From: Candidatus Cloacimonadota bacterium
GTDB lineage: Bacteria; Cloacimonadota; Cloacimonadia; Cloacimonadales; Cloacimonadaceae
Length of the DNA stretch: 64,000 nt
NCBI GenBank assembly: GCA_012522635.1
Contig: JAAYKA010000023.1
Coordinates: 1 to 64,000, forward strand
Reading direction: 5' to 3'
A program made the position numbers and the translations under genes. A model generated the notes under the pieces. That model searched no databases. It saw only the letters and a list, made by a program, of their open reading frames with translations, and was not told where the DNA came from. Each line of letters begins with the position of its first letter. Within the stretch, counting starts at the first letter, position 1. Below, one piece after another: positions 10,238-46,519 of the stretch.

Positions 10238-10342
10238 AAGTCACTGCCCTTAGTCTTCCTTATGTTTCAAAAGCAAAGTTATGGTAGATAAAGGTTTACG
10301 GCCATCATCAGCTTTTTTCAACAGGCTCGTTCTAATCTATGA
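10238..10342 (+). repeat. Dispersed intergenic element A, copy 1
   Basis: First of five copies of an intergenic repeat of about 105-110 bp. It has the left block CTGCCCTTAGTCTTCC then TTATGTTT, and the right block TTCAACAGGCTCGTTCTAA. The central hairpin here pairs ATGG with CCAT. It lies between the convergent thrS and ABC permease genes, immediately beside the terminator stem. It is the most divergent copy at its left edge. Confidence 0.8.
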
Positions 10343-10454
10343 GGGCGCGATAATTTCTCTTGCTTGATCCCGTGGGCAAAAACCATCTCACCAATGAACC
10401 AGGAGCCGCAAAGCCAGGAATAGCTTTGCCTTGAGGCTCAAATCTTGGGTTTTT
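10343..10454. other. Remainder of the intergenic region between thrS and the ABC permease
   Basis: Non-coding. The stretch ACCAATGAACCAGGAGC (10390-10406) resembles the right arm (ATGAGCCAGGG) of the palindromic repeat family seen at 29705 and 61525, and AAAGCCAGG/GCTTTGCC can fold locally. No promoter or RNA gene was recognised. Confidence 0.4.
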
Positions 10455-12515
10455 CTATCTGTTTTCCGCTTCCAGTCCCAACTCCAGGTTGTCAGGTTTT
10501 TCTGCCGTAACCCTGTGAAAAGCCCAAAGCGACAGCGCCAAAATCACCAATGCCGGTGCGATTACCCAATAGCGCAGGTTTTCAGCATCCACCACTATGA
10601 ATTTCATCCAGCTTTGCTCCGAAAAAAGCCCGATGAACAGCGCCAGAGCGTTGTTGATGGTGTGTGAAAGCATGGAATTATAGATACTTCCGGAGCGTGA
10701 GCTGAGATAGCCCAACAAGATTCCCAAAATCAAAACCGGGATAAAGCGAAATAGATCAAGATGGAAAACCGCGAACAGCAGAGCGCTGATAATCACCGAT
10801 TGCCAAAACTTTCCTTTTTCAAAAAAGCGGATTAAAAAGCCACGAAACATCAGCTCCTCACAGATTCCAGGCATCACCGCAATCACCAAAAACATCTGCC
10901 AGGTGGGCACATCCAGCTTGAAAAGCTTCCCCAGCCCTTCCAGATATTCCGGCGGGAAGGGAAAAACTTGGTTGATGAGCTGGGCGATAATGGAAACCGT
11001 CACAGCCGCGGAAATCGCGATGATGGGCACCAAGAGCAGCTCCTTGGGCTTGGGAGCGTTTAATCTCAGCAGCTTTCTGGCTTCCCCGCCGCGAATCTTC
11101 AAAAATCCCAATATCAAAAAGACCGGCAAAAAAATGATGAGCAATTGGGTTTTCACCAAACCGTTCACCAAGTTTCCCATCTGCCATTTCGTGCCCAAAT
11201 AATAAAGCGCCACCAAAGCCAGGGAAAAATAGACCGCGCCGTTGAAGGGATTGAAAAATCCACGCTTGCTTTTCCGCTGGGAGCGCAGACCGCCGCCATC
11301 CTCTTCAGTTCTGAAAAGCACCGCTTCGGAATGGAAAAGTTTCACCGTCAGCCAGATTGCCAAAACGTCCAAAACCAAAGTGCTGCCAACCGTGATCAGC
11401 AGATGCGAAAGCTCCCATTCGCCAATCAAGATTCCCTTGAAAAGCAGCGCGATATTCACCACCGGCAGCAGCGCCATCAGATTGCTAATCTGCATGGCAG
11501 GAATGAAGCTCACCATGCCTAAAAGCATGGAAACAATCATGATGGGCTGTTCGTAGGTGCGGGCTTCCTTCATGTTTCTGGAAAAAGTGGAAATGGAAAG
11601 CAGCAGCGCTGAAAACAAGGTAGCCAGAGGTATCATCGCCAAAAGCAGAATCATGAACGATTTTATGGGCAGTTGCAGACCTTGCTCCGCGAAACCCATC
11701 TGGGAAAGCAAAAACTTAACGGAAAAGCTTATGCTGATGAGGTTTATAATCACGTTTATCATCGCCATGCAAAACACGGTGAGATACTTTCCAAGAACGA
11801 TTTCACCGCGTGTTGCCGACGAAACCAGCAGCGTTTCCAAGGTGCGGCGTTCCTTTTCACCCGCCACGAGGTCTGCAGCCACCACCGAAGCGCCAGTTAT
11901 CAACATCAATATCATCATATAGGGCAACAACATACCCAACAAATTGCCCATCTTTTTCTCGGTGGACGAGCTGTCGAATTGCTTCACCGTGAGCGGATGG
12001 ATATATTCTTCTTCCAAACCTTTTTCGCTCAGGCGTTTGGCAAGTATTTTGGAATTTACCTGCGAAAGGCTTTTCTGCAGTTTTTCAAAAAGCAGGCGCC
12101 CCTGATCTCCGGACGCGTCAAAGCGGATGCCGGCTCTGTAACTTGGAACCCCGCTGGTTGAAACTGTATCCGAGATGCTCACCACAGCCAGAATTTCTCT
12201 TTCTTCATAAAGCATTTCCAGATGTGGCGGATTTTCCAGGGTGGTCACATACGGCGTTTCCTGCAGGGTTTGAAACACGGTTTCATAGATTTCCTTGGCG
12301 TCGGGTGTGTCGTATGAAAGGCTGTCCATCAGCGCGATAACGGCACCGCGCTTATCCAAAATATCGGCTTGGCGGCTCATAATGCTGCTGGAACCGATGA
12401 AAATCAGCGGATATAGGATAACGGGCAGAACTATGGTGGCGAAAAGCGTGCGCTTGTCACGCAGCATTTCCAGGATTTCTTTGCGGAAAACGATTAATGC
12501 TTTTTTAAAATTCAT
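10455..12515 (-). CDS. ABC-2 type permease (NatB-like) fused to a CPBP intramembrane protease
   Basis: A 686-residue two-part membrane protein. Residues 1-430 form a NatB-type ABC exporter permease: an N-terminal helix, a large extracytoplasmic loop (about 50-180), then a helix cluster containing VAGEKERRTLETLLVS, a hallmark of this family. Residues 430-686 form a CPBP (CAAX-protease-like) domain with all three motifs: EE at 553-554 with R558, FAVFH, and HTINN. The active-site glutamates are intact, so proteolytic activity is plausible. The ATG start at 12515 overlaps the ATPase gene by 11 bases. The substrate is unknown; Na+ or peptide export are the family precedents. Confidence 0.88.
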   Translation of the reverse strand: MNFKKALIVFRKEILEMLRDKRTLFATIVLPVILYPLIFIGSSSIMSRQADILDKRGAVIALMDSLSYDTPDAKEIYETVFQTLQETPYVTTLENPPHLEMLYEEREILAVVSISDTVSTSGVPSYRAGIRFDASGDQGRLLFEKLQKSLSQVNSKILAKRLSEKGLEEEYIHPLTVKQFDSSSTEKKMGNLLGMLLPYMMILMLITGASVVAADLVAGEKERRTLETLLVSSATRGEIVLGKYLTVFCMAMINVIINLISISFSVKFLLSQMGFAEQGLQLPIKSFMILLLAMIPLATLFSALLLSISTFSRNMKEARTYEQPIMIVSMLLGMVSFIPAMQISNLMALLPVVNIALLFKGILIGEWELSHLLITVGSTLVLDVLAIWLTVKLFHSEAVLFRTEEDGGGLRSQRKSKRGFFNPFNGAVYFSLALVALYYLGTKWQMGNLVNGLVKTQLLIIFLPVFLILGFLKIRGGEARKLLRLNAPKPKELLLVPIIAISAAVTVSIIAQLINQVFPFPPEYLEGLGKLFKLDVPTWQMFLVIAVMPGICEELMFRGFLIRFFEKGKFWQSVIISALLFAVFHLDLFRFIPVLILGILLGYLSSRSGSIYNSMLSHTINNALALFIGLFSEQSWMKFIVVDAENLRYWVIAPALVILALSLWAFHRVTAEKPDNLELGLEAENR

Positions 12516-13266
12516 GATTCTCAAGCTCCATGCCGGTTTGGTTCACATAGTGCACAAAAATGTCGTCAAGGTCTTCAAAGCCAGTTTCTTCGCGCATCTG
12601 CTGCAGGGTTCCCTGTGCCAAAACCTTGCCGCTGTGTATCATCACAATCCGATCCGCCAAGCGCTCTGCCTCACGCATAATGTGGGTGGAAAACAACACG
12701 CATTTGCCATTTTCCCTGCAGGTTCGGATGAAGGAAATGATGTTGCGCGCGGTCAGAATATCCAATCCGGATGTGGGTTCGTCAAATATCATCACAGGTG
12801 GATCGTGAATAATGGAACGCACGATGGAAGCTTTTTGCTTCATGCCGCTGGAGAGGAATTCCATCTTTTTATCCAAAAAATCGTGCATATCCAAAAGCGT
12901 TGCCATCTCATCAATCCGCTTTTTGATATCTTGTTCTTCCACGCCGTACAGCCTGCCAAAATAGGTGATGAACTCGCGCGGGCTGAGGCGCATGTAAAGC
13001 CCTGTGTCGCCTGAAAGGAAGCCCAGATTGCGGCGCACCATATCGCCCTGGGAAACGATGTCGTAACCCTCGATTTGCGCGCTGCCGCCATTGGGCTTGA
13101 AAATGGTGGAAAGCACCCGCATTGTGGTGGTCTTTCCAGCGCCATTCACGCCCAAGAGGCAAACAATTTCACCATGTGCCGCCTCAAAACTGACTCCATC
13201 CACTGCCCTGAAAGTGTTGCCGTTTTTTTGTGGAAACTCTTTTACCAACGATTGAACCTGGATCAT
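12505..13266 (-). CDS. ABC transporter ATP-binding protein, NatA-like
   Basis: A 253-residue ATPase that powers the adjacent permease. Walker A is GVNGAGKTT (39-47), the signature is LSSGMKQKASI, and Walker B is PVMIFDEPTSGLD. The switch histidine is in LFSTHIM. The start chosen is the ATG at 13266, preceded by AAGGTG at a good SD distance; an in-frame GTG nine bases upstream is less likely. Gene order ATPase then permease with an 11-base overlap is the normal NatAB-like arrangement. It is transcribed leftward from the 545-bp gap shared with the divergent methyltransferase gene. Confidence 0.92.
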   Translation of the reverse strand: MIQVQSLVKEFPQKNGNTFRAVDGVSFEAAHGEIVCLLGVNGAGKTTTMRVLSTIFKPNGGSAQIEGYDIVSQGDMVRRNLGFLSGDTGLYMRLSPREFITYFGRLYGVEEQDIKKRIDEMATLLDMHDFLDKKMEFLSSGMKQKASIVRSIIHDPPVMIFDEPTSGLDILTARNIISFIRTCRENGKCVLFSTHIMREAERLADRIVMIHSGKVLAQGTLQQMREETGFEDLDDIFVHYVNQTGMELENHEF

Positions 13267-13440
13267 TATTAACACCTTATTCCATGCTGTCTGAAAATTT
13301 TTGTGGATGTTTTCCGGTGCTTGTCATCATGTCAAGCATTATCGTTTGTGATACAGGAATCAATCTAAGGTTTAACATTAAGTCACATCATATAACATCA
13401 TGATTTTCAAGATGTTATCCTTGTATAATTAAAACCAGAC

Positions 13441-13560
13441 ATGCTAATCCTGCCTCCCAGCTTTACCCTTCCCTGCCTCCAGCTCATGTGTCTTTCGAAC
13501 ATGCCTCGTGATCATCCCGATTCTTTATCGGGAAGTGCGCGGGTGACTGCCGTGTAACAT
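13441..13560. repeat. REP-like palindromic element B, copy 1
   Basis: Contains the hairpin TCCCGATTCTTTATCGGGA (7-bp stem, 13515-13533), which is nearly identical to the inner hairpin at 61568-61588. The left part (CCTTCCCTGCCTCCAGCTCATG) is an inverted and degenerate version of the ATGAGCCAGGG-type arm in the other copies. Likely non-coding and a relic of a dispersed repeat. Confidence 0.55.
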
Positions 13561-13729
13561 TGCTGTCTGAACCCAGAGCGAATCAAGAAAGGGGAGGATA
13601 AAAAGCCAGGAAGGCCACAAAAAAAAGCCAACCGCAAAGATGGAATTACCGGCATTTTAACAGATTAAGGAAGCTTGAACACGAAAAACACTTGACTAAA
13701 AACCGCCGCTCAAAGTAAATGGACACGTA

Positions 13730-13735
13730 TATAAT
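13730..13735 (+). promoter_or_regulatory. Possible -10 box for the methyltransferase/rho operon
   Basis: Perfect TATAAT, 77 bases before the methyltransferase start codon. No good -35 box is found at the right distance; a TTGACT at 13692-13697 is too far away. It is therefore listed as a -10 candidate only. Confidence 0.4.
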
Positions 13736-13811
13736 GAAACAGCCCAAAGCGGCTTGAAACCAGCGAGGAGACTATCATCCCAATCACCATATCAAGAGAG
13801 GATTATCTTTT

Positions 13812-14540
13812 ATGAAAGAAGCGCTCAGCCTGCTCAATCAGATTGAAGCCAGCCGTGTTTTGGACGCTGCCACAGGAAAAGGTGATTTCATCCAAACCCT
13901 GAAACAACACCTGAAAAGCTATGGCCAAATCATCGGCGTGGACGCCTCTGAAAAAAGCGTTGACCATGCTCAAAAGCGCTTTCCAGAGAATGATGTGGAG
14001 ATTTATCGCATGGATCTTGGCGCGCTGGCTTTCGAAGACGCCAGTTTTGACCTGGTGACGCTTTTCAACTCCCTGCACCATATTGCCGAGCTTGATAAAG
14101 CTTTATCCGAGATGATGCGCGTTTTAAAGCCCGGCGGCAGGTTCTTGATTAGCGAAATGTATTGCGATGGCCAGCAAAGTGAACCCCAAAAAACCCATGT
14201 GATGATGCACCATTGGCTTGCCCACATCGACCGTGAAAGCGGAATCTATCATCGTGATACCTTTAAACGGGATGAGATAATCGCCATCTTTGATGGCTTG
14301 GGGCTGGCAAAGCTCAAAAGCGTGGATTATTATGTCCCTGTGGATGATCCCAAAGCCGTCCTCAACTGCGATAACCTGAAGCGAAACTGTTCCGTGGCGT
14401 TCAGCAAAGCCCATAATCTCGAAAAATATGAGGAAATCCTCAGTGAAGGAAAAATGGTTTTGGAGAGAATTAATGATGTGGGATGCGCCGGCGCCAGCAG
14501 ATTGATGCTTTTGGGCCAAAAACCAAATATAAATATGTAA
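13812..14540 (+). CDS. Class I SAM-dependent methyltransferase
   Basis: A 242-residue cytoplasmic methyltransferase of the UbiE/Methyltransf_11 type. The SAM-binding motif I is VLDAATGKGDF (with the variant ATGKG in place of GxGxG). Motif II acid is in IIGVDASEKSV. The post-motif segment FDLVTLFNSLHHI and VLKPGGRFLISE complete the fold. The substrate is not identifiable: the UbiE core is there, but no quinone-pathway neighbours are. SD GAGAGG is close to the ATG. Rho follows 20 bases after its stop, and the two are probably co-transcribed. Confidence 0.85.
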   Translation: MKEALSLLNQIEASRVLDAATGKGDFIQTLKQHLKSYGQIIGVDASEKSVDHAQKRFPENDVEIYRMDLGALAFEDASFDLVTLFNSLHHIAELDKALSEMMRVLKPGGRFLISEMYCDGQQSEPQKTHVMMHHWLAHIDRESGIYHRDTFKRDEIIAIFDGLGLAKLKSVDYYVPVDDPKAVLNCDNLKRNCSVAFSKAHNLEKYEEILSEGKMVLERINDVGCAGASRLMLLGQKPNINM

Positions 14541-14560
14541 AAATCCAAGGAGAATGGAAA

Positions 14561-15820
14561 ATGTCTATAGACGAAAATCTGTTTGAACTACCTCAAACCC
14601 AGCTTACCAAGCTGGCTAAAAAATATGAAATCCCAGGTTATACCCAGCTCAAAGGAACCGACATGGTTTTCAAGCTGTTGGAATATAAGGCAGCCCAGGA
14701 GGGTCTGGCTTTCGTGACCGGCTGTTTGGAAATCATGGACGATGGCTTTGGCTTTCTGCGTTTTCCCCAAAACAACTATCTGCCGGGTCGGGACGATGTT
14801 TATGTATCGCTCACCCAAGTGCGGCGTTTCGGACTGAAAACCGGACACATGATTTCCGGTCCTGTGCGTTCGCCCAAGGAAGGTGAGAAATATTACGCTC
14901 TTTTGCGGGTTGACGCGGTCAACTATATGGCCCCCACAGCGATGCAGGATCTGCGCACCTGGGACGAACTTACACCTTACTATCCCACCGAGCGCCTGAA
15001 CCTGGAATTTTCCCCAACGAACTATTCCACCCGCATCATCAACCTCTTCACCCCCATCGGAAAAGGTCAGCGCGGCCTGATTGTTGCTGCTCCCCGCACC
15101 GGAAAGACAACCCTGTTGCAAGACACCGCGAACGCGATTCTTTCCAACCATCCGGAAGTCTATCTGATTGTGTTGCTGGTGGATGAGCGACCCGAAGAGG
15201 TTACGGAAATGAAAAAAATCCTCAAACCGGGAAACCGGGAGGTAATCAGCTCCACATTTGACGAATCGCCAAAAAACCACACCGCCGTCAGCGAAATGGT
15301 GCTTGAAAAAGCCAAGCGCATGATTGAGCTAAACCAGGACGTGGTCATCGTTTTGGATAGTATCACCCGCCTGGCGAGAGCTTACAATAACATCACGCCT
15401 TCCAGCGGAAAGGTGCTTTCCGGAGGTATCGACGCCAACGGGCTCATCAAACCCAAAAAATTCTTTGGTGCCGCTCGTAATACTGAGGAAGCGGGCTCGC
15501 TTACCATCATCGCCACCGCGCTCATAGATACCGGTTCGAAGATGGACCAGGTGATTTTTGAGGAATTCAAAGGCACTGGAAACATGGAATTGGTGCTGGA
15601 TCGCAGCATTTCCGACATGCGCCTCTACCCTGCCATCGATCTTGTTAAAAGTGGAACCCGCCGCGAAGAGCTGTTGCTTACCCAAAACGAGATTAACCGC
15701 ATGTATGTGTTGCGCAAATATCTGAAAACCATCAGCCCCATCCAGGGCATCGAAACCCTGCGCAAACAAATGCAGGCCTCAAAAAGCAATGATGAACTGC
15801 TGAACTCCATGAGCAACTAA
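14561..15820 (+). CDS. rho: Transcription termination factor Rho
   Basis: A hexameric RNA-DNA helicase that ends transcription. The 419-residue length equals that of the E. coli protein. The N-terminal helical domain (1-50) and the OSB-fold RNA-binding domain (GFGFLRFPQNNYLPG, DDVYVS) are intact. Walker A is APRTGKTTL near 178-186. Walker B is VIVLDSITRLARAY. The conserved block GLIKPKKFFGAARNTEEAG and the R loop FKGTGNMEL follow. The start was set at the ATG preceded by AAGGAG; the open frame extends 26 codons further into the previous gene but has no SD there. It heads a group with the TPR-SPOR gene and mutS. Confidence 0.97.
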   Translation: MSIDENLFELPQTQLTKLAKKYEIPGYTQLKGTDMVFKLLEYKAAQEGLAFVTGCLEIMDDGFGFLRFPQNNYLPGRDDVYVSLTQVRRFGLKTGHMISGPVRSPKEGEKYYALLRVDAVNYMAPTAMQDLRTWDELTPYYPTERLNLEFSPTNYSTRIINLFTPIGKGQRGLIVAAPRTGKTTLLQDTANAILSNHPEVYLIVLLVDERPEEVTEMKKILKPGNREVISSTFDESPKNHTAVSEMVLEKAKRMIELNQDVVIVLDSITRLARAYNNITPSSGKVLSGGIDANGLIKPKKFFGAARNTEEAGSLTIIATALIDTGSKMDQVIFEEFKGTGNMELVLDRSISDMRLYPAIDLVKSGTRREELLLTQNEINRMYVLRKYLKTISPIQGIETLRKQMQASKSNDELLNSMSN

Positions 15821-15840
15821 ACCACGCTGGAGGATTTCAT

Positions 15841-17070: not shown

Positions 17071-17077
17071 AACACGG

Positions 17078-21402: not shown

Positions 21403-21410
21403 GGTCTGCT

Positions 21411-21519
21411 GTCTCTCTAGCCGCCCTTAGTATCCCTTATGTTTATAAAGCCAACTATAAGCCACACATAGTTTTATGGCTTTGAGCCTTTGTTTTCAAC
21501 AGACTCGTTCTTATATAAT
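21411..21519 (+). repeat. Dispersed intergenic element A, copy 2
   Basis: Starts GTCTCTCTAGCCGCCC and ends TCAACAGACTCGTTCTTATA. It carries the tandem CCCTTA motif (10-bp spacing) and the best central hairpin, AAGCCA / TGGCTT (21459-21464 with 21477-21482). It begins 9 bases after the SurA-like stop codon, between convergent genes. Confidence 0.88.
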
Positions 21520-21663: not shown

Positions 21664-24600
21664 TTACTTCAACAACAAGGCCTTGCGGGTGGCGTTCAGA
21701 ATTGGCGAGCGCAGCTTGATGAAATAGATTCCAGAAGCCGCGGTTTTGCCTCCTTCATCGCGACCATCCCAAACCACACTGTGACTGCCGGCTGTAAGAT
21801 TGCTGTGTAAAATCTCGCGTACCAGTTGTCCCTTGACATTGTAAACGCAAATCTCCACGTTTGTGGCTTTTTCCAGGTCGAAAGCGATGGTGGTGCTGGG
21901 GTTGAACGGGTTGGGATAGTTTTGATGGAGCCGCGATTGCAGAGGCGGCGCTTGCGGATCATCTTGATTCACCCAGGGATATGAAAAACTGGCGGGTTCG
22001 CTGCCCACGCTTTCACCGCTTTCATAACAGGCGATGACCTGATAGCGGTAATCCCCTTCAATGATAAGCGTTTCAAGGTATTGCGCGTCCTGCACCTGAG
22101 CAATCTGTTCATACTTTCCAGAATTCAGCTTCCGGATGATTTTGTAAGAAACAACTCCATCCTGCGGAGGCTGCCAACTGAGGGTGAGCAAATCTTCCAC
22201 GATGGAAAATTCGAGCTCTTCCACAGGAGGAAACCAAGTGAGGAAATAGTCCAGTTCCGCGCTGGGATTTTGCAGGTTCAAGGCAATGGGCTGCACACTT
22301 TGTTCCAGATAACCAGGTCCTGCGGCTGTAATCTTATGTTCGCCCGAGGGCAGATACAGTTCATAAGAGCCGTCCGGGGCAACTTGGGTTACAATATCTT
22401 CATCGTTGAAAACCATAATTTGGCAAAAATCTTCATCAGGTTTTGAGGTTTCCACATTGCCGCTTACTTTTCCCGCAAAAGGAAGGAAGCCAGTGGTTTG
22501 AACATCATCAATGAACCAGCCTGCGCCATTTTGGGAATAGTCCGAAGCAAAAGTCCAGCGGAAGCGGACATTTTGATTGCTGTATGGCGCAAGGGAAAAC
22601 CGGGCTTGCAGCCAGCCATTCGAGTTTCCAGAATAACCAGGACCTCCCAGGGCGGAAACACTGCTGTGAGTGTAACCACCTTCCGGGGTCAAGGTTATCC
22701 AGGTGACGCCGTCGTTTGTGGAGATTAAAACATTTCCGCCATCGTAATTGTTTTCCGTTTGGAACCAGTGGTGGAACTCCAGAACAAAACTTTCCCCAAC
22801 ATAAACTGTCGGCGAAGTGAGAGTCCAATTCGCGCTGTTGGAATATTGCTGATTTATCAGGGTTCCCCAAGTTTTACTTCCGCTGTGAGCGCCCGCAGTG
22901 GAGTCGCTTCCCCACTGCCAGCCAGTGTTTGTCGGATGCGGAATAAATCCGCCATCCGTGCTTTCAAAATCCTCATACATCCCTGTGGTTCCCACATTCA
23001 GCAGGATGCTTTCGTTTTGGGCGTTCACCCCATCGCCCAGATAGGTGAGATAAAAAGTCAGGTTGTTTCCAACAATGACGTTCGGGGAAAGGCTAACCGT
23101 GTATGCTGCCTGGACTGTGGCTCCCGCCGGGATGAGAGGTAAAATTTGCTGGGGATTGACGATATCAACCTCCCCGCTGAGGCAGGTGATATTGCTGGTC
23201 AGGTTCAGCGCGTCCACATTGCCAAGATTTGTGTAGTTCACCACCATAATGAAGGTCTCGCCTGGATCCGCCATGCCGTTCACGTTGCCCTGAATGTCGT
23301 TGATGAATATCCCGCTCATTTGGATTATTGGTTTTTTCACGGTCAAATTGTAAGGATAAGCCCAGGTGTTGTTTGCCGCGCTAACGCTCAATTCCAGAGG
23401 GATATTCACGTCGCCGGGACAATCCTGCGAAACCACAACCCTGATGGGGTCAAAGTTTACGCCCGAGCCGCTGCCGGGGATGTTTGGATATGCGCTTTGA
23501 GGGTTTTCGATGCTCAGATGCGGGCTGGATGTGGTTACATTTATCTCGACCTGTGTGGCTTCGTCCAAGCCAATGTTGTTGAGTTTGATGCCCAAAAGTG
23601 CGCGCTCACCGGGTTCCAACCAGGAATTTCCATTTTCATCATCGATGATAATCTCATCCACCATCAGATGTGGATGTTGAAAAAGAACGGGAGTTGTGGT
23701 AATCAGCAGCGCTTTTTGATTTCCCAGTGGCTGAGCCGCCTGGGGGTATTGGTTGTTGTAGCTATATTCCAAGCCGCGGATGCCGCTGTGATCACGGATG
23801 CCCACGCTGGCGTATTTTCCGTGTCTGGGCCCGGAGCCGCTGCCGCCCACATCGACGTTGTTAAAAACCTTATATTGAATTTTAATCATGCCGTCGCCCA
23901 AGCCAGTGGGGTAAAACATTGGGTCATAAAAGATTACTTGGAAGGTCTCTTCCGAGCTGCGGTTATAGCCATTTTTCAGATTTTGCCATTGGATGATGAA
24001 AAGATGGTTTTCCACGTCATGATATTGGTAAATCCCGCTTCCAGAGGGGATGATGAGGTCATCCCAAAACGGCGCTATCATCGGTGAAGGTCCGCCAATT
24101 CCAGGCATGCGCGTATTGCGGAAGTCGCCGTCCTCGGTTATTCCCATTGCGATAAAACCGTTAGAACAGACTGTAATCTGGTCGTAATCTATGCCATAGA
24201 AACCAAAATTGAATGGCAATTCCACCGTTTTCAACACCGTGCTGCCGTTTGTATCACCCTCCGAACTTGAGGAACCGGGATCACTAAAACCTGATATTAT
24301 GGAACCAGAGCCGCCCAAACTGGGAACAATCTCAATCCAGTCATAAGTGGGACAATCCGGAAAGGCGGTATCTGAATCATCGTAAATCAGATAACCATAT
24401 TCATCCGGTCCCAGAGGTGTGTTTTGGCTCACCTTGCCGATGGTGATGGAAAAATGGCAATATTGCTCGAAACCCTGGTCATTATATAGCCTCAGCCTGA
24501 AAGGAATTACCATTCCGGGAATCAACAATGGTCGGGCAAAAATCTCAAATCCATCCACGGATGTGGCGTTCATGCCAGCTCCCACCCCGCCAAACCAGGA

Positions 24601-27057
24601 AATTGGCTGGTTCACCACAAGCAGGTCGTTCAAAGCGGTCAGTTCTCCATAAAGGTCAAAAGCTCCAAAAACTGAACTGTTGCTCAGGGTCAGATTCAGT
24701 GTTCCTGTCTCGCCTGGGTCGAGGGTATTGTCACCACCGGCGCTAATTGTGAAGTTAGCCACGTCCAGGTTGGCATTGTAGGCTCCCAAGTGGAAAATGA
24801 AGCTCCGCTCGTTGCCATCGGCATCGACCAGATCCAAGCTGAAGCGGCAATCGTGGAAGGAGTCGATATTGTTGTCGAAATGGATTAAAAACGGAGTCTC
24901 ATTTTGTCCCAAGATATTTGGATCAAGATCCGGATAGGCGCTTTGCGATTGGATGATGCTCAATTTCAGGTCGTCTGTGGCAAGCTGGGCGCTGATGCCT
25001 TGAATTGTTTCGGCGCTGCTGTTGCAAATCTCCACAAACAGGGCGATGGTCTCACCGGCATTGATAAAACCGTCGCCATTTCCGCTTGAACCATGATTGC
25101 CATTGTCGATTGTGGTTTTGGAATAATAAACCAGCGAACCGGCGGCGTCGATATCAATTGTCTGTTGAGCGGGTTTATAGTTTTGAGCAGAGGCTGTCAC
25201 CAGAAGGTCGGAACTCACGAAATTGGGCACACTGAGAGCCACCATACCGCTGTTATCTGTAAACCCGGTGGCAACAACATCTCCATATCCGGCGTTGTAG
25301 AGAGTGACACAGATATTTTCCAGTGGATTTTGGTCGACATCTGTCACAAAGATTTCCACCAATGGAGTTTGGCGCGGAATGCTGGCAGGTGCATCGATAA
25401 GAAGGCTGCCTGGAATGCCCACAAAAGCTTCCACTGTGGGGTCACCCATCAGATTGCACCAATGCGCGGAACTGTTTGCCTGGCTGCTATTGCTTTGCCC
25501 ATATAGGTTTGAAAGATGGATGCGTCCGTTCAGCAAAGCCTGGCCCATGTTTCTCATCCCGTGCTGAAAAATACCTTCAAATATCCCAGCCGCCAAAGCG
25601 TTGTTCAACATCGTGTGGGTGCCTGTGGTTGCCATTCCGATGGCGGTGATGGCACCCTTGGGTTCGGCCTCCGATCCCAGCCGGATAAAGTTTTCCGTCG
25701 TGCTGGTGGAGCCATAATCGCCGGTGCTGCAGGTCAACATGACTGAGTGAGGCATCCTGGGTCCATTAGAAAGCGAGTTGCTGGGACTCCAGCCGCTCAT
25801 GCCCAGCCAGCCACGATAGTTGAAATAAGCCACACCCTGGTTGATACCGGTGTTCATGGTGCTGGAAAAGCCGCTGCTGTAGTTTTCAATGTATTCATAA
25901 TCCGGATTTGCCCTTTGACTCATTTCACGGATGTATTTGCTATTATAAATGGTTGAAATCCCAGAACCACTGGAAGTATCTCCAATTAAAAGGATACGAT
26001 TCAGCCAGGCTGCGGCGCCAGCGTTGTTATTGACGTTTTTCTCGTAAACATAGATTTTTTGGAAGAGAGTGATGAGCTGGGAAAGATTTTCCGCCGATAT
26101 GCGACCAATGAAAACATCCCCCAGAAGGTCGTTTCCAGCCAGATGTGTGTAGGGATAATCGCCAATTCCGCTGTATCCGCTGTAGGATTCGTTCCACGCG
26201 GGAATGGCATAGCTGCCGCTGGTATCGCCCACGAGAATGATATAATCCGGCCTTGTGTCCTGGTTGTTAAACTGCGCTTGGATGTAGTTTTTGATGGCGG
26301 AACTTGAGCTTCCCGCCTGAGCGGTGCTGGCAACATTCACCAAAAACCCTTTTTGTCGTTTCCAAGCCACAAATTCGTTCAATCTCGCTAAAAAAACCTG
26401 GTCACTGCTGTTGCCATGAATCAATAAAATGCGAGCCTGGGTGTTGTCCAATCTCAGATGCCTGTAATCGTCGAAATTAGCGATTTGGGCTTCATAAAGT
26501 GCTTCAAAAGCAGGGCTGTAACCCTCAAACAGGGGAAGTTCATTTGGGCCTTCCTCAGGGCTGAAATCCAGGCTAATCCTGATATCGTGATAAACAGCGA
26601 TTTTCTCTGAAAGCGGATCGTATTGACAGGGATGAACGCTGAGCTGAACCACTCTGAAATCCCGCAGTATTGCTGGTTCTGAACCCAAAACCAGACTGGA
26701 TGCCTGAAGCAATCCACCCTCCTGCTCTCCCCCACTTTGTGTGAAAAGCTCTGGAGCATCGATATATTCAACGTTGCCATGGCTCCAGGAGAGCGTGTAA
26801 TTTCCCTGGGCAGGAATCGCCACCAAGGTGCTAAACACGGGTAATTCAGCATATCCCGGTTCGGCATTGAACGCTTTATCCATGCCGATGCTTTGCACCC
26901 TTCGTCCCTCAAATTCCACTTCCTCAATCTTCAACTGAGGGACCTCCAACTCCAACTGAACGCGCTGGGTGGATGAACTCCTCACGCTGAAAGGGCTGGT
27001 TTGCGCGCCCAACACACACAACCCCAAAAGCAGTGCCAAAATGCTTATCCGCTTCAT
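21664..27057 (-). CDS. Giant C25 (gingipain-like) surface protein with FCB C-terminal sorting domain
   Basis: A 1797-residue exported protein. Signal peptide MKRISILALLLGLCVLGAQ, then a propeptide-like region (30-200). A C25-peptidase-like domain covers about 205-545: RILLIHGNSS, DYIILVGDTSGSYAIP, and the catalytic-type cysteine C443 in MLTCSTGDYG. The expected catalytic histidine in NYTGH is replaced by tryptophan (W417 in NYRGW). Then follow carboxypeptidase-regulatory-like and Ig-like repeats (about 560-1370), a MAM/jelly-roll domain (about 1380-1540; EFHHWFQTENNYDGG), an FN3 domain, and the sorting module NYPNPFNPST...YNVKGQLV. The ATG at 27057 is preceded by SD AAGGAAGA. Surface adhesion or degradation role inferred. 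Confidence 0.85.
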   Translation of the reverse strand: MKRISILALLLGLCVLGAQTSPFSVRSSSTQRVQLELEVPQLKIEEVEFEGRRVQSIGMDKAFNAEPGYAELPVFSTLVAIPAQGNYTLSWSHGNVEYIDAPELFTQSGGEQEGGLLQASSLVLGSEPAILRDFRVVQLSVHPCQYDPLSEKIAVYHDIRISLDFSPEEGPNELPLFEGYSPAFEALYEAQIANFDDYRHLRLDNTQARILLIHGNSSDQVFLARLNEFVAWKRQKGFLVNVASTAQAGSSSSAIKNYIQAQFNNQDTRPDYIILVGDTSGSYAIPAWNESYSGYSGIGDYPYTHLAGNDLLGDVFIGRISAENLSQLITLFQKIYVYEKNVNNNAGAAAWLNRILLIGDTSSGSGISTIYNSKYIREMSQRANPDYEYIENYSSGFSSTMNTGINQGVAYFNYRGWLGMSGWSPSNSLSNGPRMPHSVMLTCSTGDYGSTSTTENFIRLGSEAEPKGAITAIGMATTGTHTMLNNALAAGIFEGIFQHGMRNMGQALLNGRIHLSNLYGQSNSSQANSSAHWCNLMGDPTVEAFVGIPGSLLIDAPASIPRQTPLVEIFVTDVDQNPLENICVTLYNAGYGDVVATGFTDNSGMVALSVPNFVSSDLLVTASAQNYKPAQQTIDIDAAGSLVYYSKTTIDNGNHGSSGNGDGFINAGETIALFVEICNSSAETIQGISAQLATDDLKLSIIQSQSAYPDLDPNILGQNETPFLIHFDNNIDSFHDCRFSLDLVDADGNERSFIFHLGAYNANLDVANFTISAGGDNTLDPGETGTLNLTLSNSSVFGAFDLYGELTALNDLLVVNQPISWFGGVGAGMNATSVDGFEIFARPLLIPGMVIPFRLRLYNDQGFEQYCHFSITIGKVSQNTPLGPDEYGYLIYDDSDTAFPDCPTYDWIEIVPSLGGSGSIISGFSDPGSSSSEGDTNGSTVLKTVELPFNFGFYGIDYDQITVCSNGFIAMGITEDGDFRNTRMPGIGGPSPMIAPFWDDLIIPSGSGIYQYHDVENHLFIIQWQNLKNGYNRSSEETFQVIFYDPMFYPTGLGDGMIKIQYKVFNNVDVGGSGSGPRHGKYASVGIRDHSGIRGLEYSYNNQYPQAAQPLGNQKALLITTTPVLFQHPHLMVDEIIIDDENGNSWLEPGERALLGIKLNNIGLDEATQVEINVTTSSPHLSIENPQSAYPNIPGSGSGVNFDPIRVVVSQDCPGDVNIPLELSVSAANNTWAYPYNLTVKKPIIQMSGIFINDIQGNVNGMADPGETFIMVVNYTNLGNVDALNLTSNITCLSGEVDIVNPQQILPLIPAGATVQAAYTVSLSPNVIVGNNLTFYLTYLGDGVNAQNESILLNVGTTGMYEDFESTDGGFIPHPTNTGWQWGSDSTAGAHSGSKTWGTLINQQYSNSANWTLTSPTVYVGESFVLEFHHWFQTENNYDGGNVLISTNDGVTWITLTPEGGYTHSSVSALGGPGYSGNSNGWLQARFSLAPYSNQNVRFRWTFASDYSQNGAGWFIDDVQTTGFLPFAGKVSGNVETSKPDEDFCQIMVFNDEDIVTQVAPDGSYELYLPSGEHKITAAGPGYLEQSVQPIALNLQNPSAELDYFLTWFPPVEELEFSIVEDLLTLSWQPPQDGVVSYKIIRKLNSGKYEQIAQVQDAQYLETLIIEGDYRYQVIACYESGESVGSEPASFSYPWVNQDDPQAPPLQSRLHQNYPNPFNPSTTIAFDLEKATNVEICVYNVKGQLVREILHSNLTAGSHSVVWDGRDEGGKTAASGIYFIKLRSPILNATRKALLLK

Positions 27058-27112
27058 CAAATCTTCCTTAATCCAAATTGGCGTTTTCCACGCCATTGCC
27101 TTTTATTGAGTG

Positions 27113-29826: not shown

Positions 29827-29937
29827 ATATACTGTAGAACGAGTCTGCTGGGAAACGATGAGCCAAGCCCTATCTCTATATCTGGCTTAAATTTAGCTTT
29901 TGAAACATAAGGGATACATAAGGCGGCAAGCAAGAGG
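29827..29937 (-). repeat. Dispersed intergenic element A, copy 3 (reverse orientation)
   Basis: Read on the minus strand it starts CTCTTGCTTGCCGCC and ends GCAGACTCGTTCTACAG. The hairpin stem is AAGCC / GGCTT. It is the only copy in reverse orientation, and it lies between two genes on the plus strand. The rest of the 29701-30133 gap holds copy 2 of element B and a weak candidate promoter for the nitrilase gene (TTGACC 30035-30040, ATAAAT 30058-30063). Confidence 0.85.
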
Positions 29938-30133
29938 ATGCTTTCTAATCCATGTTACTCGCGGATTTGGCGATTTAATAATTCCGGTTTTCTTGGCTAA
30001 AAACAGGATAAAGACCCGCTTCCCAGAAAATAGCTTGACCAAAATCTGTCTTTCTGAATAAATGCTATTTTGTGGCTTGATTGGCGTCTATTCCCTCCAA
30101 GCCTAATAAACACAAGGAGATATAAAAAAAGAA

Positions 30134-37219: not shown

Positions 37220-37226
37220 AAAGCCC

Positions 37227-38600: not shown

Positions 38601-38615
38601 ATAATCGAAATAAAA

Positions 38616-38674
38616 GAAGAGCGGTTTTTCAAAATGTCAATGGACTATAGAAAATCCGCTCTTCAGTTTTTTTT
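38616..38674 (+). terminator. Strong terminator after the glmM-like gene
   Basis: The outer stem GAAGAGCGG / CCGCTCTTC (38616-38624 with 38656-38664) is extended by the facing TTTTTC and GAAAAT bases. It is followed by an 8-base T tract (38667-38674). It ends the long operon starting at 30134. Confidence 0.9.
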
Positions 38675-38700
38675 CAGCAGTTTATCAGGTAAAAATTGGC

Positions 38701-38812
38701 TGTCTCTGGGTCGCCGCCTTTAGTCTTCCTTATGTTTTAAAAGCTAATCATAAGTGATATATAGGTTTAGGCACAAATGAGGACGTTACAACCAACTCGT
38801 TCTTATGTATGG
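38701..38812 (+). repeat. Dispersed intergenic element A, copy 4
   Basis: Starts TGTCTCTGGGTCGCCGCC and carries CCTTATGTTTTAAAAGC, TTTAGGC and the right end ACCAACTCGTTCTTATG. The central stem is reduced to GTG / CAC. It lies 27 bases after a strong terminator, in the 468-bp gap before the thiolase gene. Confidence 0.85.
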
Positions 38813-39006
38813 TGCTTGATAATTCTCTTCGGACATTGGGATGTGGTATAAATGGTGAGAGAAAGCAAGGCAAGCTTGGATGGAATTGTAGGATTATTCG
38901 GGAATTCAGCATATTTGAAAACCATATTAACGATTCCCAACATACCAAAATATCCCCAATTCATCCGCTTTCCCAGCCAATTTCTCGCGCGAATCATAAA
39001 TAGCAG
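38813..39006. other. Non-coding spacer before the thiolase promoter
   Basis: No supported gene on either strand. Short open frames here lack ribosome-binding sites and family resemblance. Several imperfect AT-rich inverted repeats are visible (for example around GAATTCAGCATATTTG), but nothing assignable. Confidence 0.4.
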
Positions 39007-39035
39007 TTGACCGAATATGGCGGGAAAATTATGGT
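39007..39035 (+). promoter_or_regulatory. Promoter of the thiolase-aminotransferase operon
   Basis: TTGACC (39007-39012) and TATGGT (39030-39035) are separated by 17 bases. They lie 34 bases before the chosen start codon. Five of six and four of six bases match the sigma-70 consensus. Confidence 0.55.
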
Positions 39036-39068
39036 GCAAGAAAACAAAATAAAAAGATGGAGGAAGCC

Positions 39069-40265: not shown

Positions 40266-40280
40266 TAAGGAGAAAAATAA

Positions 40281-41525: not shown

Positions 41526-41583
41526 TGGGATTTTGATAATTCTTCCGCCGAGACAGGCGAAACACACAGTATTAACAAGCTGG

Positions 41584-41666
41584 ATTCCGGGAGAATCATC
41601 CTGGAATTACAGACAACCTCGGGGCCGGTTTCAAAGGCTGGCCCCAACATTTGATTTTTCTTTTTA
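41584..41666 (+). terminator. Double-hairpin terminator between the aminotransferase and CTP synthase genes
   Basis: The first hairpin is ATTCCGGGA-gaatca-TCCTGGAAT (41584-41607, nine pairs including one G-U). The second is GGGGCC ... GGCCCC (41621-41626 with 41640-41645). A T-rich run (TTTGATTTTTCTTTTT) leads to 41666. The run abuts the pyrG start, so it may also act as a regulatory leader for pyrG. Confidence 0.65.
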
Positions 41667-41671
41667 GATTT

Positions 41672-43255
41672 ATGGCAAAATATATTTTCGTTGTGGGCGG
41701 CGTTCTGTCCTCTCTGGGAAAAGGAATCGCCGCTGCGTCCATCGGTGTTTTGCTGAAAAGCATGGGCCACAAGGTTCAGATCCAGAAGCTGGATCCCTAC
41801 CTTAATCTTGATCCAGGACAGATGAGTCCTCTGCAACATGGTGAGGTTTTCGTGACCGACGATGGCGCTCAGGCGGATCTGGATCTTGGTCATTATGAGC
41901 GCTTTTTGGATCAGGCTTTGAGCCGCAACAGCAGTTGTAGCGCGGGCCAGATTTATGAAAGTGTTTTGCGCTGTGAAGCCGAAGGCCGTTACCAGGGAAG
42001 AACGGTGCAGGTTATCCCCCACGTTACAGACGAGATAAAACGTCGCATTCTGGAGCTTGGGCCACAGGCGGACATTGTAATCGTGGAAATTGGGGGCACT
42101 GTTGGCGACATCGAAATCCTCCCCTTTCTGGAGGCGGTTCGTCAATTGCGCCTGGATCTGGGAGTGCAAAACACCCTCTTCGTGATGCTGACATATATTC
42201 CATGGATTCGCTCGGCGGGAGAGCTGAAAACCAAGCCAGCACAGCATAGCGCCTACAAGCTGAGGGAGATTGGTATCCAGCCGGAAATCCTGCTTTGCCG
42301 CAGTGAAAAACCTTTTGGACCTGAAATCTATGACAAGATTGCGCTGTTCACAAACGTTCCACGAGCCAGCGTGATCAACGCCATCGATGTGGATAGTGTG
42401 TATGAATGCCCACTGATATATCGTGAAGCCGGCTTGCACAAGATTGTCTGCCGCCATTTTGGATTTGAGATAAAACCGCTCAGGCTTGCCGCGTGGAAAC
42501 GTTATCTGCGCTGCACGGAAGTGGAGGAACCAAAGCTAAGGATCGCGGTTTGCGGCAAATATGTGCAACACCGTGATGCCTATAAAAGTGTGGGGGAAGC
42601 ACTCACACACGCTGCCGCCTTCCACGGTGTAGCACTGGATTTAAACTGGATTGACAGCAGCCAGCCCCTGCAGCGATCAGCCTTGAAAAAAGCCTTGCAG
42701 AATATGGATGGCATCCTGGTGGAAGGCGGATTGGAAGCAGCGGGCTTGGAAGGTGAAGTGGCAATAGCCGAATTCGCCCGGAAGGCTGGAATCCCGTTTT
42801 TGGGTATCTGCTTGGGAATGCAGGCGATGGCAGCCGAGTTTGCCCGCAATGTCTGTGGTTTGAAAAAAGCCAGCAGCCAGCTTTTTGATCCCAATACGCC
42901 ACATCCACTTTTTATTCCATTAGAAGGGGGCACGCGTCTGGGCGCAAGGGATGTGGAACTTGAGGTGGGCAGTCAGGCGAGGAAGATTTTTAAAAGAGCC
43001 AGGATCAGCGAAAGACAACGTCACCGACAGGGCTTCAACCTGGCCTACCGGGAGGCGCTGGAAGCAAAAGGGCTGAGTTTCAGTGGGTTTTCACCGGATG
43101 AAAAAACAGTGGAGGTCATCGAACTTCCCTCCCAAAGTTTTCACATTGGGGTGCAGTTTCATCCGCAGTTTAAATCTCGTCCGAACAAGGCCCATCCGCT
43201 GTTTAAGGAGTTTTTACGAGCAGCACTGGAAATCTTCAACACCAAAAAAAGCTGA
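41672..43255 (+). CDS. pyrG: CTP synthase with a divergent glutaminase domain
   Basis: Makes CTP from UTP using ammonia, normally drawn from glutamine. The 527-residue protein keeps the amidoligase half: IFVVGGVLSSLGKG, KLDPYLNLDPGQM, and GGTVGDIEILPF. The class-I amidotransferase half keeps the nucleophile C380 in GICLGMQ and H497. However, the third catalytic residue is Gln (Q499; HPQFKSRP instead of HPEFKSRP). The oxyanion-loop consensus PGGFGxRG is replaced by EGGLEAAG (351-358), and ERHRHRYE reads ERQRHRQG. Glutaminase activity may be weak or lost. No SD is visible before the ATG at 41672, which directly follows a T-rich terminator-like leader. Confidence 0.9.
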   Translation: MAKYIFVVGGVLSSLGKGIAAASIGVLLKSMGHKVQIQKLDPYLNLDPGQMSPLQHGEVFVTDDGAQADLDLGHYERFLDQALSRNSSCSAGQIYESVLRCEAEGRYQGRTVQVIPHVTDEIKRRILELGPQADIVIVEIGGTVGDIEILPFLEAVRQLRLDLGVQNTLFVMLTYIPWIRSAGELKTKPAQHSAYKLREIGIQPEILLCRSEKPFGPEIYDKIALFTNVPRASVINAIDVDSVYECPLIYREAGLHKIVCRHFGFEIKPLRLAAWKRYLRCTEVEEPKLRIAVCGKYVQHRDAYKSVGEALTHAAAFHGVALDLNWIDSSQPLQRSALKKALQNMDGILVEGGLEAAGLEGEVAIAEFARKAGIPFLGICLGMQAMAAEFARNVCGLKKASSQLFDPNTPHPLFIPLEGGTRLGARDVELEVGSQARKIFKRARISERQRHRQGFNLAYREALEAKGLSFSGFSPDEKTVEVIELPSQSFHIGVQFHPQFKSRPNKAHPLFKEFLRAALEIFNTKKS

Positions 43256-43427
43256 AGCTTGGCTCGCGCTTAGTGTGCTTTGTGTAAAATTTTCCACAGT
43301 TTTGTGTTTTTTATTCCATTTACCGCTTGACTTTGTCAAAGCATTTTCTTTATTTGCCTAAGATGTGTCGGGGCGCTGCCCTTCAAAACCATAAAAAAGA
43401 TTCAGCGAAAAAAAGGATGCCAAAGCA

Positions 43428-44429
43428 ATGAGAAAGACCTTGAGCCTGTTGTGTGCCCTGCTACTACTTTTGGCTGCATGCCCCAGGCAAGAAAAACCTG
43501 CCTCAACCCCCAAAAACGCAGCTATGGACAGCACGGAATTGGAGAAGGAGGGTCTCTTTAAAATGCGCTATAGGCTGAAATGGCTGGATCAGGCACAGTT
43601 TGCCGGGGCTTACGTAGCCTTGGAGAAAGGTTTTTATCTCAAACGTGGCTTGGATGTGGAAATTTTGGAAGGCGGTCCGGATCATCTGCTTTACGGCTCG
43701 CTTTTGGATTCAAGCGCGGATGTGGTGAGCTTACACCTCCTTTTGGGGATGAACTATTTCAACAGCCCAAGACAGGTGGTGAACATCGGGCAGACCTTTC
43801 AAAAAAGCGCCACCCTGTTGGTGGGAAAAAAGAGCTCGGGGATTCGAGATCTGAAAGATTTGGCAGGGAAAAAAGTTGGTGTCTGGCGAGGACAAAGCTA
43901 TGTCCGCTATTTTTTGGACAGGCAAGATTTGGGCATCCGGGCCATTCCAATCGATTGGAGCGTTAACCTTCTTCTCAGCAACGCTGTGGACATGATGAAC
44001 GCCACCTCCTACAACGAATATCACCGCATCCTGATGGCAGGATTGGACGAAGAGGATCTGACTGTTTTCAGCCTGGCAGAACTGGGATTCAACGTGGTTG
44101 AGGATGGGCTGTATGTTTTGAAAGATTATTATCAAAAACACCCTCAACAATGCAGGGATTTTGCCGAGGCAACTCAGGAAGGCTGGCTTTACGCCTTTGA
44201 AAACCAGGAGGAAACTCTCCAAATCGTTACCGAAAGAATGCGCAGCAACCATCGCCCCACAAACATCGGACACCAACGATGGATGCTTCAACATTTGCAA
44301 GACCTTGTTTTGGGAGCCGGGGAGCCGGGAATACTGCAAAAAAGCGATTTGGATTTTGCAAACCAGATTCTAATGGAAAACGGAGAACTGGACAAACCCA
44401 TCCCCTATGAGGAGTTCTGCCCACGATGA
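43428..44429 (+). CDS. NMT1/THI5-like substrate-binding lipoprotein
   Basis: A 333-residue lipoprotein with the lipobox LLAAC (C18). The mature part is a type-II periplasmic binding fold of the NMT1/THI5 class: RLKWLDQAQFAGAYVALEKG, FYLKRGLDVEILEGG, LLVGKKSSGIRDLKDLAGKK and VGVWRGQ. Such proteins bind pyrimidines, thiamine precursors, sulfonates or similar small molecules. No permease or ATPase gene is nearby. Instead it overlaps the following membrane phosphatase gene by 4 bases, so it more likely acts as the sensing subunit of that phosphatase than as a transporter part. SD AAGGATG lies upstream. The 172-base gap before it has only weak promoter-like TTGACT (43327). Confidence 0.83.
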   Translation: MRKTLSLLCALLLLLAACPRQEKPASTPKNAAMDSTELEKEGLFKMRYRLKWLDQAQFAGAYVALEKGFYLKRGLDVEILEGGPDHLLYGSLLDSSADVVSLHLLLGMNYFNSPRQVVNIGQTFQKSATLLVGKKSSGIRDLKDLAGKKVGVWRGQSYVRYFLDRQDLGIRAIPIDWSVNLLLSNAVDMMNATSYNEYHRILMAGLDEEDLTVFSLAELGFNVVEDGLYVLKDYYQKHPQQCRDFAEATQEGWLYAFENQEETLQIVTERMRSNHRPTNIGHQRWMLQHLQDLVLGAGEPGILQKSDLDFANQILMENGELDKPIPYEEFCPR

Positions 44430-46336
44430 AAATGAAGAAAAAGACCCAGAGATTGAGCTCTCAATTAATCGGACAGCTTTTATTGTTCATGGCGGTTCTC
44501 TTCGTTTCTCTGCTTTTTGTGATTTTGAGAATGCTTTTCGATGTGGAAAGAACAAACCAGGAAGAGTCAATCTCAAACCTGGTGGAAAGCAATGTCCAGA
44601 TTATTGATCGCAATCTTTCGGGGATAATTTCGTTGGCAAAAAATCTGCAAAGTGTGGTGAATGATGGGGTTTACGATGATGCTCAAATCCAGCGCCACAT
44701 CCACCATCTTTTGCTGGATAACCCCGTCCTGACTTCGGCTTGCCTGGCTTATTTTGAACCAAATTCATCACATGCCACCACTTTCACCCTGAAAGAACAA
44801 AGAATTAATGCTAATCAAAGCGTGAGCGACGATTTTTTGTTCAAAGATTGGTACCAGATTCCATGGCTGACGGGACGACCATACTGGAGCGATCCATGGT
44901 ATGACGGCGAAGGAACAAAAACCATTGTTTGTTCCTACAGTATCCAACTGACCAAAAAGGGAAAAAACCTTGGTATTATCAGGTTGGATCTGCCCTTGGC
45001 AAACCTGCGCAGAATTGTTGTTAAAATGCGGGTCAAGGAAAGCGGGACGGCTTTTTTGGTGGGCTCAAACGGCATGATTATGGCCCATCCCCGCGACAGC
45101 CTGGCAATGAACTATACAGTCTTCGACCTGGTTAACCTCACCCCCACAAAAGAGATGAGGGAAGTGGCAAAACGAGTGGTGAGAGGAGAGCAAGGTTTTG
45201 AGCGTGGCCGAGACCTGGGAAACATTGACGACAGTTGGATTGCGTTTCATCCCCTGCCCTCAAATAGTTGGTCACTGGTGGCGATGGTTCCTCATCGCGA
45301 GGTTTTCGCGCATTTGCGCTATCTAAGCATCATTCTTTCTCTGGCAGTCCTGTTTGGGTTTTTGGTTTTGGCGTTCATGCTCTGGTTCAGGGTCCAAACG
45401 TTGAATGAGCCACTCATGGATTTGGTGGAGGGAATCAAACTGGCAGGCGCGGGAGACCTGAGCCCATCGCCACCGATTGAGTCAGAATCCTATGAAGTCC
45501 AAGTGATTGCTGAAAACTTTGAAGCGATGAAGAGTTCACTAAGCACGCATATTGAAAACCTGAAAGAACTGACCCAGGAAAAGAATCGCATCAGCGCAGA
45601 ACTGGCTTTTGCCTCCAACGTTCAAAGAAGCCTGATCCCAAACGGTAACACCAGCAAGCCCCCCAACCTTGATGTTTATGGACTTCTGGAGCCAGCCGGC
45701 ATGGTAGGAGGTGACCTTTTTGACTATTTCATGGTTGATAATCGACGCTTCCTTTTTGCAATCGCGGACGTTGTGGGCAAGGGTGTAGGCGCCGCGATGA
45801 CCATGACCATGGCCACCACACTTCTGCGCAACATCGCGCCCAACCATGAAAAACCGCAAACGATTTTGAGCGAATTGAACACCTTTTTCATGAGCCACAA
45901 GTTGGAAGCTGGCTATTTGACCATGGCGTTGGGAATTATCGATCTTGTTAGCGGAGTTTGCGTATTTTCAAACGCGGGACACCTGCCACTATATATTTTA
46001 GGTAATGATGGCCAAATCCACAAACACGAGCGCACACACTCCACGGCGCTTGGCTTTTTTGAGAATATCAAAATTAAAAGTGAGGAATTCACACTCACAG
46101 CCGGAGATAAAATTCTGCTGGTGACAGACGGTGTAACAGAAGCCACGAATCCAAACGAACACCTCTTTGGAACTCAAGGGCTGGAAAGAACCCTGGCACA
46201 GTTGAAGGGCGTCTCAGCCGAGAAAACAACCAATGCAATCCTGGAAGCAGTTTTAGATTTTGCCGACCCGGAGAAGGGACGCGACGACATCACCATCCTG
46301 GCAATAGAATATCTGGGCAACTTGCAAGAGTCTTAA
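44426..46336 (+). CDS. Membrane sensor phosphatase: extracytoplasmic sensor, HAMP, SpoIIE/PP2C domain
   Basis: A 636-residue RsbU/SpoIIE-type serine phosphatase. The first membrane helix is at about 13-35. A Cache-like extracytoplasmic sensor follows (about 40-285; WYQIPWLTGRPYWSDPWYDG, IIRLDLPLANLR, VGSNGMIMAHP). The second helix is at about 293-316, then a HAMP segment. A PP2C domain (about 395-633) has metal-binding motifs EPAGMVGGDLFDYF, FAIADVVGKGVGAAM, FSNAGHLPLYI and GRDDITILAI. It should dephosphorylate an anti-sigma-factor antagonist, but no such gene is in the window. Coupling to the upstream binding lipoprotein suggests ligand-controlled stress signalling. Confidence 0.88.
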   Translation: MKMKKKTQRLSSQLIGQLLLFMAVLFVSLLFVILRMLFDVERTNQEESISNLVESNVQIIDRNLSGIISLAKNLQSVVNDGVYDDAQIQRHIHHLLLDNPVLTSACLAYFEPNSSHATTFTLKEQRINANQSVSDDFLFKDWYQIPWLTGRPYWSDPWYDGEGTKTIVCSYSIQLTKKGKNLGIIRLDLPLANLRRIVVKMRVKESGTAFLVGSNGMIMAHPRDSLAMNYTVFDLVNLTPTKEMREVAKRVVRGEQGFERGRDLGNIDDSWIAFHPLPSNSWSLVAMVPHREVFAHLRYLSIILSLAVLFGFLVLAFMLWFRVQTLNEPLMDLVEGIKLAGAGDLSPSPPIESESYEVQVIAENFEAMKSSLSTHIENLKELTQEKNRISAELAFASNVQRSLIPNGNTSKPPNLDVYGLLEPAGMVGGDLFDYFMVDNRRFLFAIADVVGKGVGAAMTMTMATTLLRNIAPNHEKPQTILSELNTFFMSHKLEAGYLTMALGIIDLVSGVCVFSNAGHLPLYILGNDGQIHKHERTHSTALGFFENIKIKSEEFTLTAGDKILLVTDGVTEATNPNEHLFGTQGLERTLAQLKGVSAEKTTNAILEAVLDFADPEKGRDDITILAIEYLGNLQES

Positions 46337-46410
46337 AATTTTCGATTAACCTATTGTCGTTCATCTTGATGCGAAGATGAACTCATCCGTATTGCTAAAT
46401 AAAAACCTTC

Positions 46411-46519
46411 GCTCTTGGCTGCCGCCCTTAGTGTCCCTTATGTTTTTCAAGCAACCTTAAGCCAGATATAAGTTTAGGCTCAGAAATAATCTTTTACAAC
46501 AGACTCGTTCTTATATTAT
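46411..46519 (+). repeat. Dispersed intergenic element A, copy 5
   Basis: Starts GCTCTTGGCTGCCGCC and contains CCCTTAGTGTCCCTTATG, AAGCCAGATATAAG and TTTAGGC; the right end is ACAACAGACTCGTTCTTAT. The stem is AGCC / GGCT. It lies between the convergent phosphatase and acyltransferase genes and ends 12 bases from the plsC stop codon. Confidence 0.88.

Follow-up and report, generated by a model that had tools for sequence, protein, structure and literature searches.

The element reported here can be set against two groups of short bacterial repeats. With the REP, BIME and REPIN sequences (GTAG and CGTC superfamilies, RAYT-linked) it has in common that it is short, palindromic and extragenic, is present in tens to hundreds of copies per genome, forms species-specific families and favours convergent and tandem gaps (PMC3733652). 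In E. coli, REPs are targeted by gyrase, and their proposed role is the relief of supercoiling at the 3′ ends of genes (PMC3733652). With ERIC/IRU, Correia/NEMIS, RUP and BOX it shares a length of about 100 bp, an intergenic and non-coding nature, internal inverted symmetry and lineage-specific amplification (PMC2229807, PMC10969869). Exclusion between sites on the same DNA is known from phage Mu, whose cis-immunity in vivo peaks near 5 kb and has fallen to background by ~7 kb (PMC7350765). Our search for papers on repeats of Cloacimonas or Cloacimonadota returned nothing relevant.

The window, that is, the whole 64,000-nucleotide stretch analysed, comes from the genome of a Cloacimonadota species (G000), a draft of 1.84 Mb in 152 contigs that is 96% complete; the data for all genomes compared are draft metagenome assemblies. 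The original prediction placed five copies of a dispersed, non-coding intergenic element, distinct from an IS and possibly of MITE or REP type, in this window. All five lie at the claimed positions, on the claimed strands, and can be aligned from end to end. We built a search profile from 38 genome copies of the element (hereafter family 1), so that the scored copies include its own sources. Within the window the profile picks out exactly five copies, scoring 72.6-84.7 bits (with E values from 1e-20 to 1e-24 when the genome is searched), and in the whole genome it finds ~78, some truncated, which is well beyond the five and supports a dispersed repeat of MITE or REP type. A strict two-block pattern gave 28 exact matches in the genome and 0 for the reversed control pattern. 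The element is ~110-140 bases long and non-coding, with at most 2 of 74 copies overlapping a predicted ORF, and the genes around the copies are housekeeping genes. Below, left-module positions are anchored on CTTATGTTT.

Copy 1: 10232..10342, plus strand; profile match 10244-10339; left module 10232-10303 with CTTATGTTT at 10259, spacer ~10304-10318, right box 10319-10332, AT tail to 10342; convergent gap between thrS (+) and an ABC-transporter gene (-).
Copy 2: 21409..21519, plus strand; profile match 21419-21517; left module 21409-21480 with CTTATGTTT at 21436, right box 21497-21510; convergent gap between a SurA-like gene (+) and a C25 protease gene (-).
Copy 3: 29827..29938, minus strand; profile match 29832-29929; left module 29867-29938, right box 29837-29850; gap after a CsgG-like gene.
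Copy 4: 38702..38812, plus strand; profile match 38712-38809; left module 38702-38773 with CTTATGTTT at 38729, right box 38789-38802; after a phosphomannomutase gene.
Copy 5: 46410..46519, plus strand; profile match 46420-46516; left module 46410-46481 with CTTATGTTT at 46437, right box 46497-46510; convergent gap between a SpoIIE-phosphatase gene (+) and an acyltransferase gene (-).

The protease gene beside copy 2 (21664-27096, minus strand) encodes a large, gingipain-like C25 protease whose C-terminal domain is of the Por secretion type.

The element consists of two modules, a left 11-bp-phased quasi-palindrome (CCTTATGTnTCCCTTATGTTT-loop-AAACATAAG..ACATAGG) and a right CAACAGACTCGTTC with an AT tail. 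Taking L as the first C of CTTATGTTT and R as the first C of CTCGTTC, the left module starts at ~L-27 with CTTCTTGCTTGCCGCC, which is followed by the outer box CCTTATGT. The inner box CCTTATGTTT lies exactly 11 bp after the outer box and is followed by an 8-bp loop, and the mirrored boxes AAACATAAG and ACATAGG are likewise 11 bp apart. TTTAGGG leads from these into the spacer, after which the right box CAACAGACTCGTTC and the AT-rich tail complete the element. Conservation reaches further left than the edge first proposed, with CTTCTTGCTTGCC from ~-27 relative to CTTATGTTT. Every one of the 62 complete copies has an L-to-R distance of 66-69 bp. When copies are compared with each other, the inner box is on average 97.5% identical, the right box 86% and the spacer 30%, which is near background. 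Some 10 bases of the spacer vary at random from copy to copy, also when the left modules are 98% identical. Among the genome copies the right box never occurs without the left module, and left-only copies do exist. One variant (locus L120, 1539-1600, contig C40 of the host genome) is a palindromised left module only, possibly the ancestral symmetric form. One helical turn of DNA is 11 bp, and the phasing of the boxes, together with the fixed distance between modules around a random spacer, fits protein-DNA contacts.

Several further features of the copies were considered and set aside. A closing stem between the flanks looks convincing in single copies (the 10232 copy, L015 and L099) and does not go beyond permutation; pairing of the spacer with the upstream flank, or as a hairpin with the adjacent TTAGGGC, is not significant. 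A guide or coupling role of the spacer, as a copy or complement of DNA close by, was not convincing after ~30 tests, one window 100-150 bp upstream giving a z of 3-4 driven by few copies.

Gap classes in the host genome were assigned with a simple home-made gene finder based on coding score. For 62 copies both flanking genes are known, and the gap is convergent in 22 cases, tandem in 26 and divergent in 14. Since convergent gaps make up only ~13% of intergenic DNA (according to the gap classes of the relative G001), they are over-represented among the copies. The predicted bias to gene 3′ ends is therefore real, but it is only moderate and comes without orientation bias; a position just downstream of a gene, also proposed, holds in part and fails genome-wide. 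The GC skew of the flanks reveals no orientation to the replication strand.

We then compared the element loci with those of related genomes. The closest genome (G001, MutS 92% identical) holds one orthologous family-1 copy, beyond the terminator that follows the HU gene (Pfam Bac_DNA_binding), together with three decayed ones, and the orthologous copy points to descent at a locus. Other relatives have no clear family-1 copy, and a strict query in GTDB genomes, IMG/VR viral contigs and plasmid collections, with the own genome excluded, found no match. At four element loci of the host genome, the intergenic DNA of G001 measures only 20-54 bp, too short for a copy. Two sister families were found in the genus. 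Family 2 is a near-perfect intergenic palindrome of 11-bp CTTAATCAAG boxes, with ~39 copies in G001 and ~7 in G000; of 14 loci that could be compared, 3 have family 2 in the slot of the G000 element, and the slot of copy 2 holds a family-2 palindrome instead in G001 (locus L133). Family 4, found in five other species of the genus, is built of ATCAATACGG boxes with perfect 35-bp arms forming a 73-bp perfect hairpin, and has at least 60 copies in G003. In the family-4 palindrome, 38 cells are changed on both sides, a number that 0 of 500 shuffles reached, and G-U intermediates are almost absent, which suggests symmetry at the DNA level.

Family 2, example: L133, 9480-9575 (G001), palindrome of CTTAATCAAG boxes.
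Family 4: loci L222 and L229-L258 (G003, G006, G008, G010 and G012), palindrome of ATCAATACGG boxes.
Further G001 repeat: C27:29162-29270, C6:145372-145555, C25:77708-77835 and C27:193004-193122, palindromic.

This further repeat has the ends CCTTGAGCC / GGAGCCAAGG and the core GCCTCCC..GGGAGGC. Many family-4 contigs end 130-240 bp from a copy, and contig C58 and the end of contig C25 of G003 carry, at contig ends, a tandem 33-bp satellite of family-4 boxes. In several species of the genus, the slot after the HU terminator (L218-L223, L227 and L228) is taken by a palindromic element whose sequence differs from species to species.

The copies keep a minimum distance from one another. In G000, the nearest family-1 neighbours on the same contig are 7,708 bp apart, and no pair is closer than 7.5 kb, compared with 18.7 expected from a calculation of contig-end exposure; in a simulation that keeps the number of copies per contig, 9.0 such pairs are expected and the probability of none is below 1 in 20,000. 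The spacing was noticed in family 1 before testing, and families 2 and 4 are partial replications for which some positions had been seen beforehand. Family 2 in G001 has a minimum of 7,718 bp (0 close pairs seen, 4.6 expected, P 0.003). For family 4 in G003 the minimum is 8,483 bp between full copies (0 seen, 7.9 expected, P 0.0007), with one 40-bp partial match lying 2.3 kb away from such a copy. Nor do families 1 and 2 form close pairs with each other in G000 (0 seen, 3.4 expected), the nearest being 8.6 kb apart. Scanning the raw sequence, for the window and for 785 kb of G001, gave results consistent with this spacing. Assembly breaks are a caveat, since copies are enriched at contig ends (18 of 78 within 800 bp compared with 8 expected); contig ends are, however, taken into account in the exposure calculation, and breaks as the cause would need the removal of every close pair. 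The absence of neighbours below 7.5 kb in three family-genome pairs is the pattern, though not an assay, of Mu/Tn7-like exclusion, and a spacing rule of ~7.7 kb hints at self-avoiding transposition or chromosome organisation. Internal symmetry, this rule and the families of sister species are additions to the first reading of the sequence.

Two explanations account poorly for these data. A structured RNA or RNA control element, whether a 3′-UTR element, a terminator or an sRNA whose variable seed lies in the spacer, seems very improbable: the left dyad does fold better than shuffles (mean z -2.4 and -2.3 on the two strands) and the free spacer resembles an sRNA seed, but the whole element folds only slightly better (mean z -1.1 for the core, ~-0.5 with flanks). 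Covarying pairs in the dyad are at shuffle level, the left arm being invariant and the right arm degenerate, and RNAalifold returns no consensus fold on either strand, so that the structured RNA envisaged in the original prediction finds no support. The terminator it also envisaged fares no better, the hairpin being AT-rich and, on inspection of the sequence, followed by no T-run; the HU-gene copy sits downstream of a separate, ordinary terminator. In agreement with the earlier failure to name a family, Rfam gives 0 matches in the window and tRNAs only in seven copy-bearing loci. The orientation to genes is inconsistent, the spacer pairs with neither flanks nor neighbours beyond permutation, and a spacing of at least 7.7 kb is not predicted by an RNA. 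Nearly as improbable is an ordinary MITE, produced in a single burst from one master and decaying neutrally since. Family 1 is short, non-coding, multi-copy, dispersed and lineage-specific, as this would have it, but from copy to copy its boxes agree at 97% and its spacer at 30%, which is about random. Spacer identity stays flat, at 0.32-0.39, across all bins of left-module identity; loci L018 and L082 combine nearly identical left modules with unrelated spacers, and spacers are shared only by the duplicated loci L017/L051 and L098/L107. This flat curve largely refutes the ordinary-MITE reading, and a spacer that is random at fixed length even between left modules agreeing at 98% excludes a plain, neutrally decaying one. 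Nor were inverted ends or target-site duplications detected: the flanks show no inverted similarity beyond permutation, the inverted symmetry being internal to the left module, and no direct-repeat signal, with ends so inexact that duplications of 2-5 bp would escape. No related autonomous element was found in the host genome, where left and right ends never occur separated and no right box stands alone. Three pairs of duplicated loci show 6/114 changes in the best-conserved columns compared with 12-15% divergence in the flanks, which, together with the free spacer, indicates that the modules are constrained after insertion, or re-copied independently of the spacer.

Based on the spacing, we tentatively favour, at somewhat short of an even chance, a model in which the element is one of several species-specific, non-autonomous intergenic palindromic families of this Cloacimonadota genus, moved in trans by machinery with Mu/Tn7-like target immunity. 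The modules would serve as the ends, or as recognition sites, for transposition machinery whose genes lie elsewhere, putatively of Mu/Tn7/IS21 type with an AAA+ target selector, which would copy the elements in trans into intergenic DNA. An existing copy would turn the next 5-8 kb into a poor target by cis target immunity, as the spacing suggests, and mutation and selection against gene disruption would leave copies in intergenic gaps, preferentially convergent ones. Copy number, patchy distribution and presence or absence between sister species speak for mobilisation in trans, and machinery with target immunity is favoured because the spacing matches the distance of Mu cis-immunity. No autonomous copy came to light in G000, and the search for a transposase there, which covered Y1/RAYT genes (PF01797), gave 0 matches. 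Against mobilisation, spacer identity does not follow left-module identity, as it would if whole elements were copied, and conserved columns change less than flanks in duplicated loci, suggesting their upkeep after insertion; moreover, the mutual avoidance of families 1 and 2 in G000 is not predicted by family-specific immunity. The copies may instead be retained chromosomal sites that need spacing, like E. coli BIMEs or gyrase/nucleoid-protein anchors, a possible but more doubtful alternative in which binding protein and box would co-evolve and sister species would use different palindromes for the same job. We place it second because unrelated families share a distance (a minimum of ~8 kb in three sequence-unrelated families of three species), avoid each other and exchange slots; the different palindromes after the HU gene, the constraint on conserved columns and the enrichment of convergent gaps also agree with it. 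However, many loci are empty in the closest relative, most other relatives lack family 1, no binding protein is known, the flank skew has no orientation to replication, and the cross-family evidence is weak, at ~p 0.03-0.05 each. The widest reading, which we consider unlikely, is a chromosome-wide system of 11-bp-phased intergenic palindromes at least ~7.7 kb apart, whose slots and spacing would persist while the box sequence is replaced in each species (CTTATGT, CTTAATCAAG, ATCAATACGG); if true, it would amount to a spacing-governed system of chromosome organisation or topology with rapidly evolving specificity.

If target immunity is at work, the elements are a natural record of its range and point to trans-acting machinery in an uncultured phylum; if they have a function, a bacterial chromosome is marked at regular intervals by fast-evolving recognition sites. 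Both readings are testable from sequence in closed genomes. To our knowledge, no short intergenic repeat family with a sharp minimum copy distance has been described, and we know of no such minimum distance common to sequence-unrelated families in sister species. The element differs from REPs in length (~110-140 bp compared with 20-40), in its profile (a core of ~103 columns without GTAG or CGTC tag, hairpin foot GCCGCC / box 2), in the absence of a RAYT gene (PF01797) from an assembly that is 96% complete, and in being bipartite, with a fixed free spacer and copies at least 7.7 kb apart. From bacterial MITE-like repeats it is distinguished by the lack of detected inverted ends or duplications, the random spacer between modules and the mutual exclusion of copies; it is by such features, and not by sequence comparison, that we set it apart from ERIC, RUP and BOX. 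Set beside Mu, Tn7 and IS21, the element has yielded no counterpart of their transposase, AAA+ protein or autonomous form, in an analysis whose genome-wide transposase search covered Y1/RAYT genes, and its putative immunity is deduced from spacing only; what the element shares with the ends of these transposons is multiple phased recognition boxes and an exclusion over ~5-7 kb, as in Mu cis-immunity (PMC7350765).
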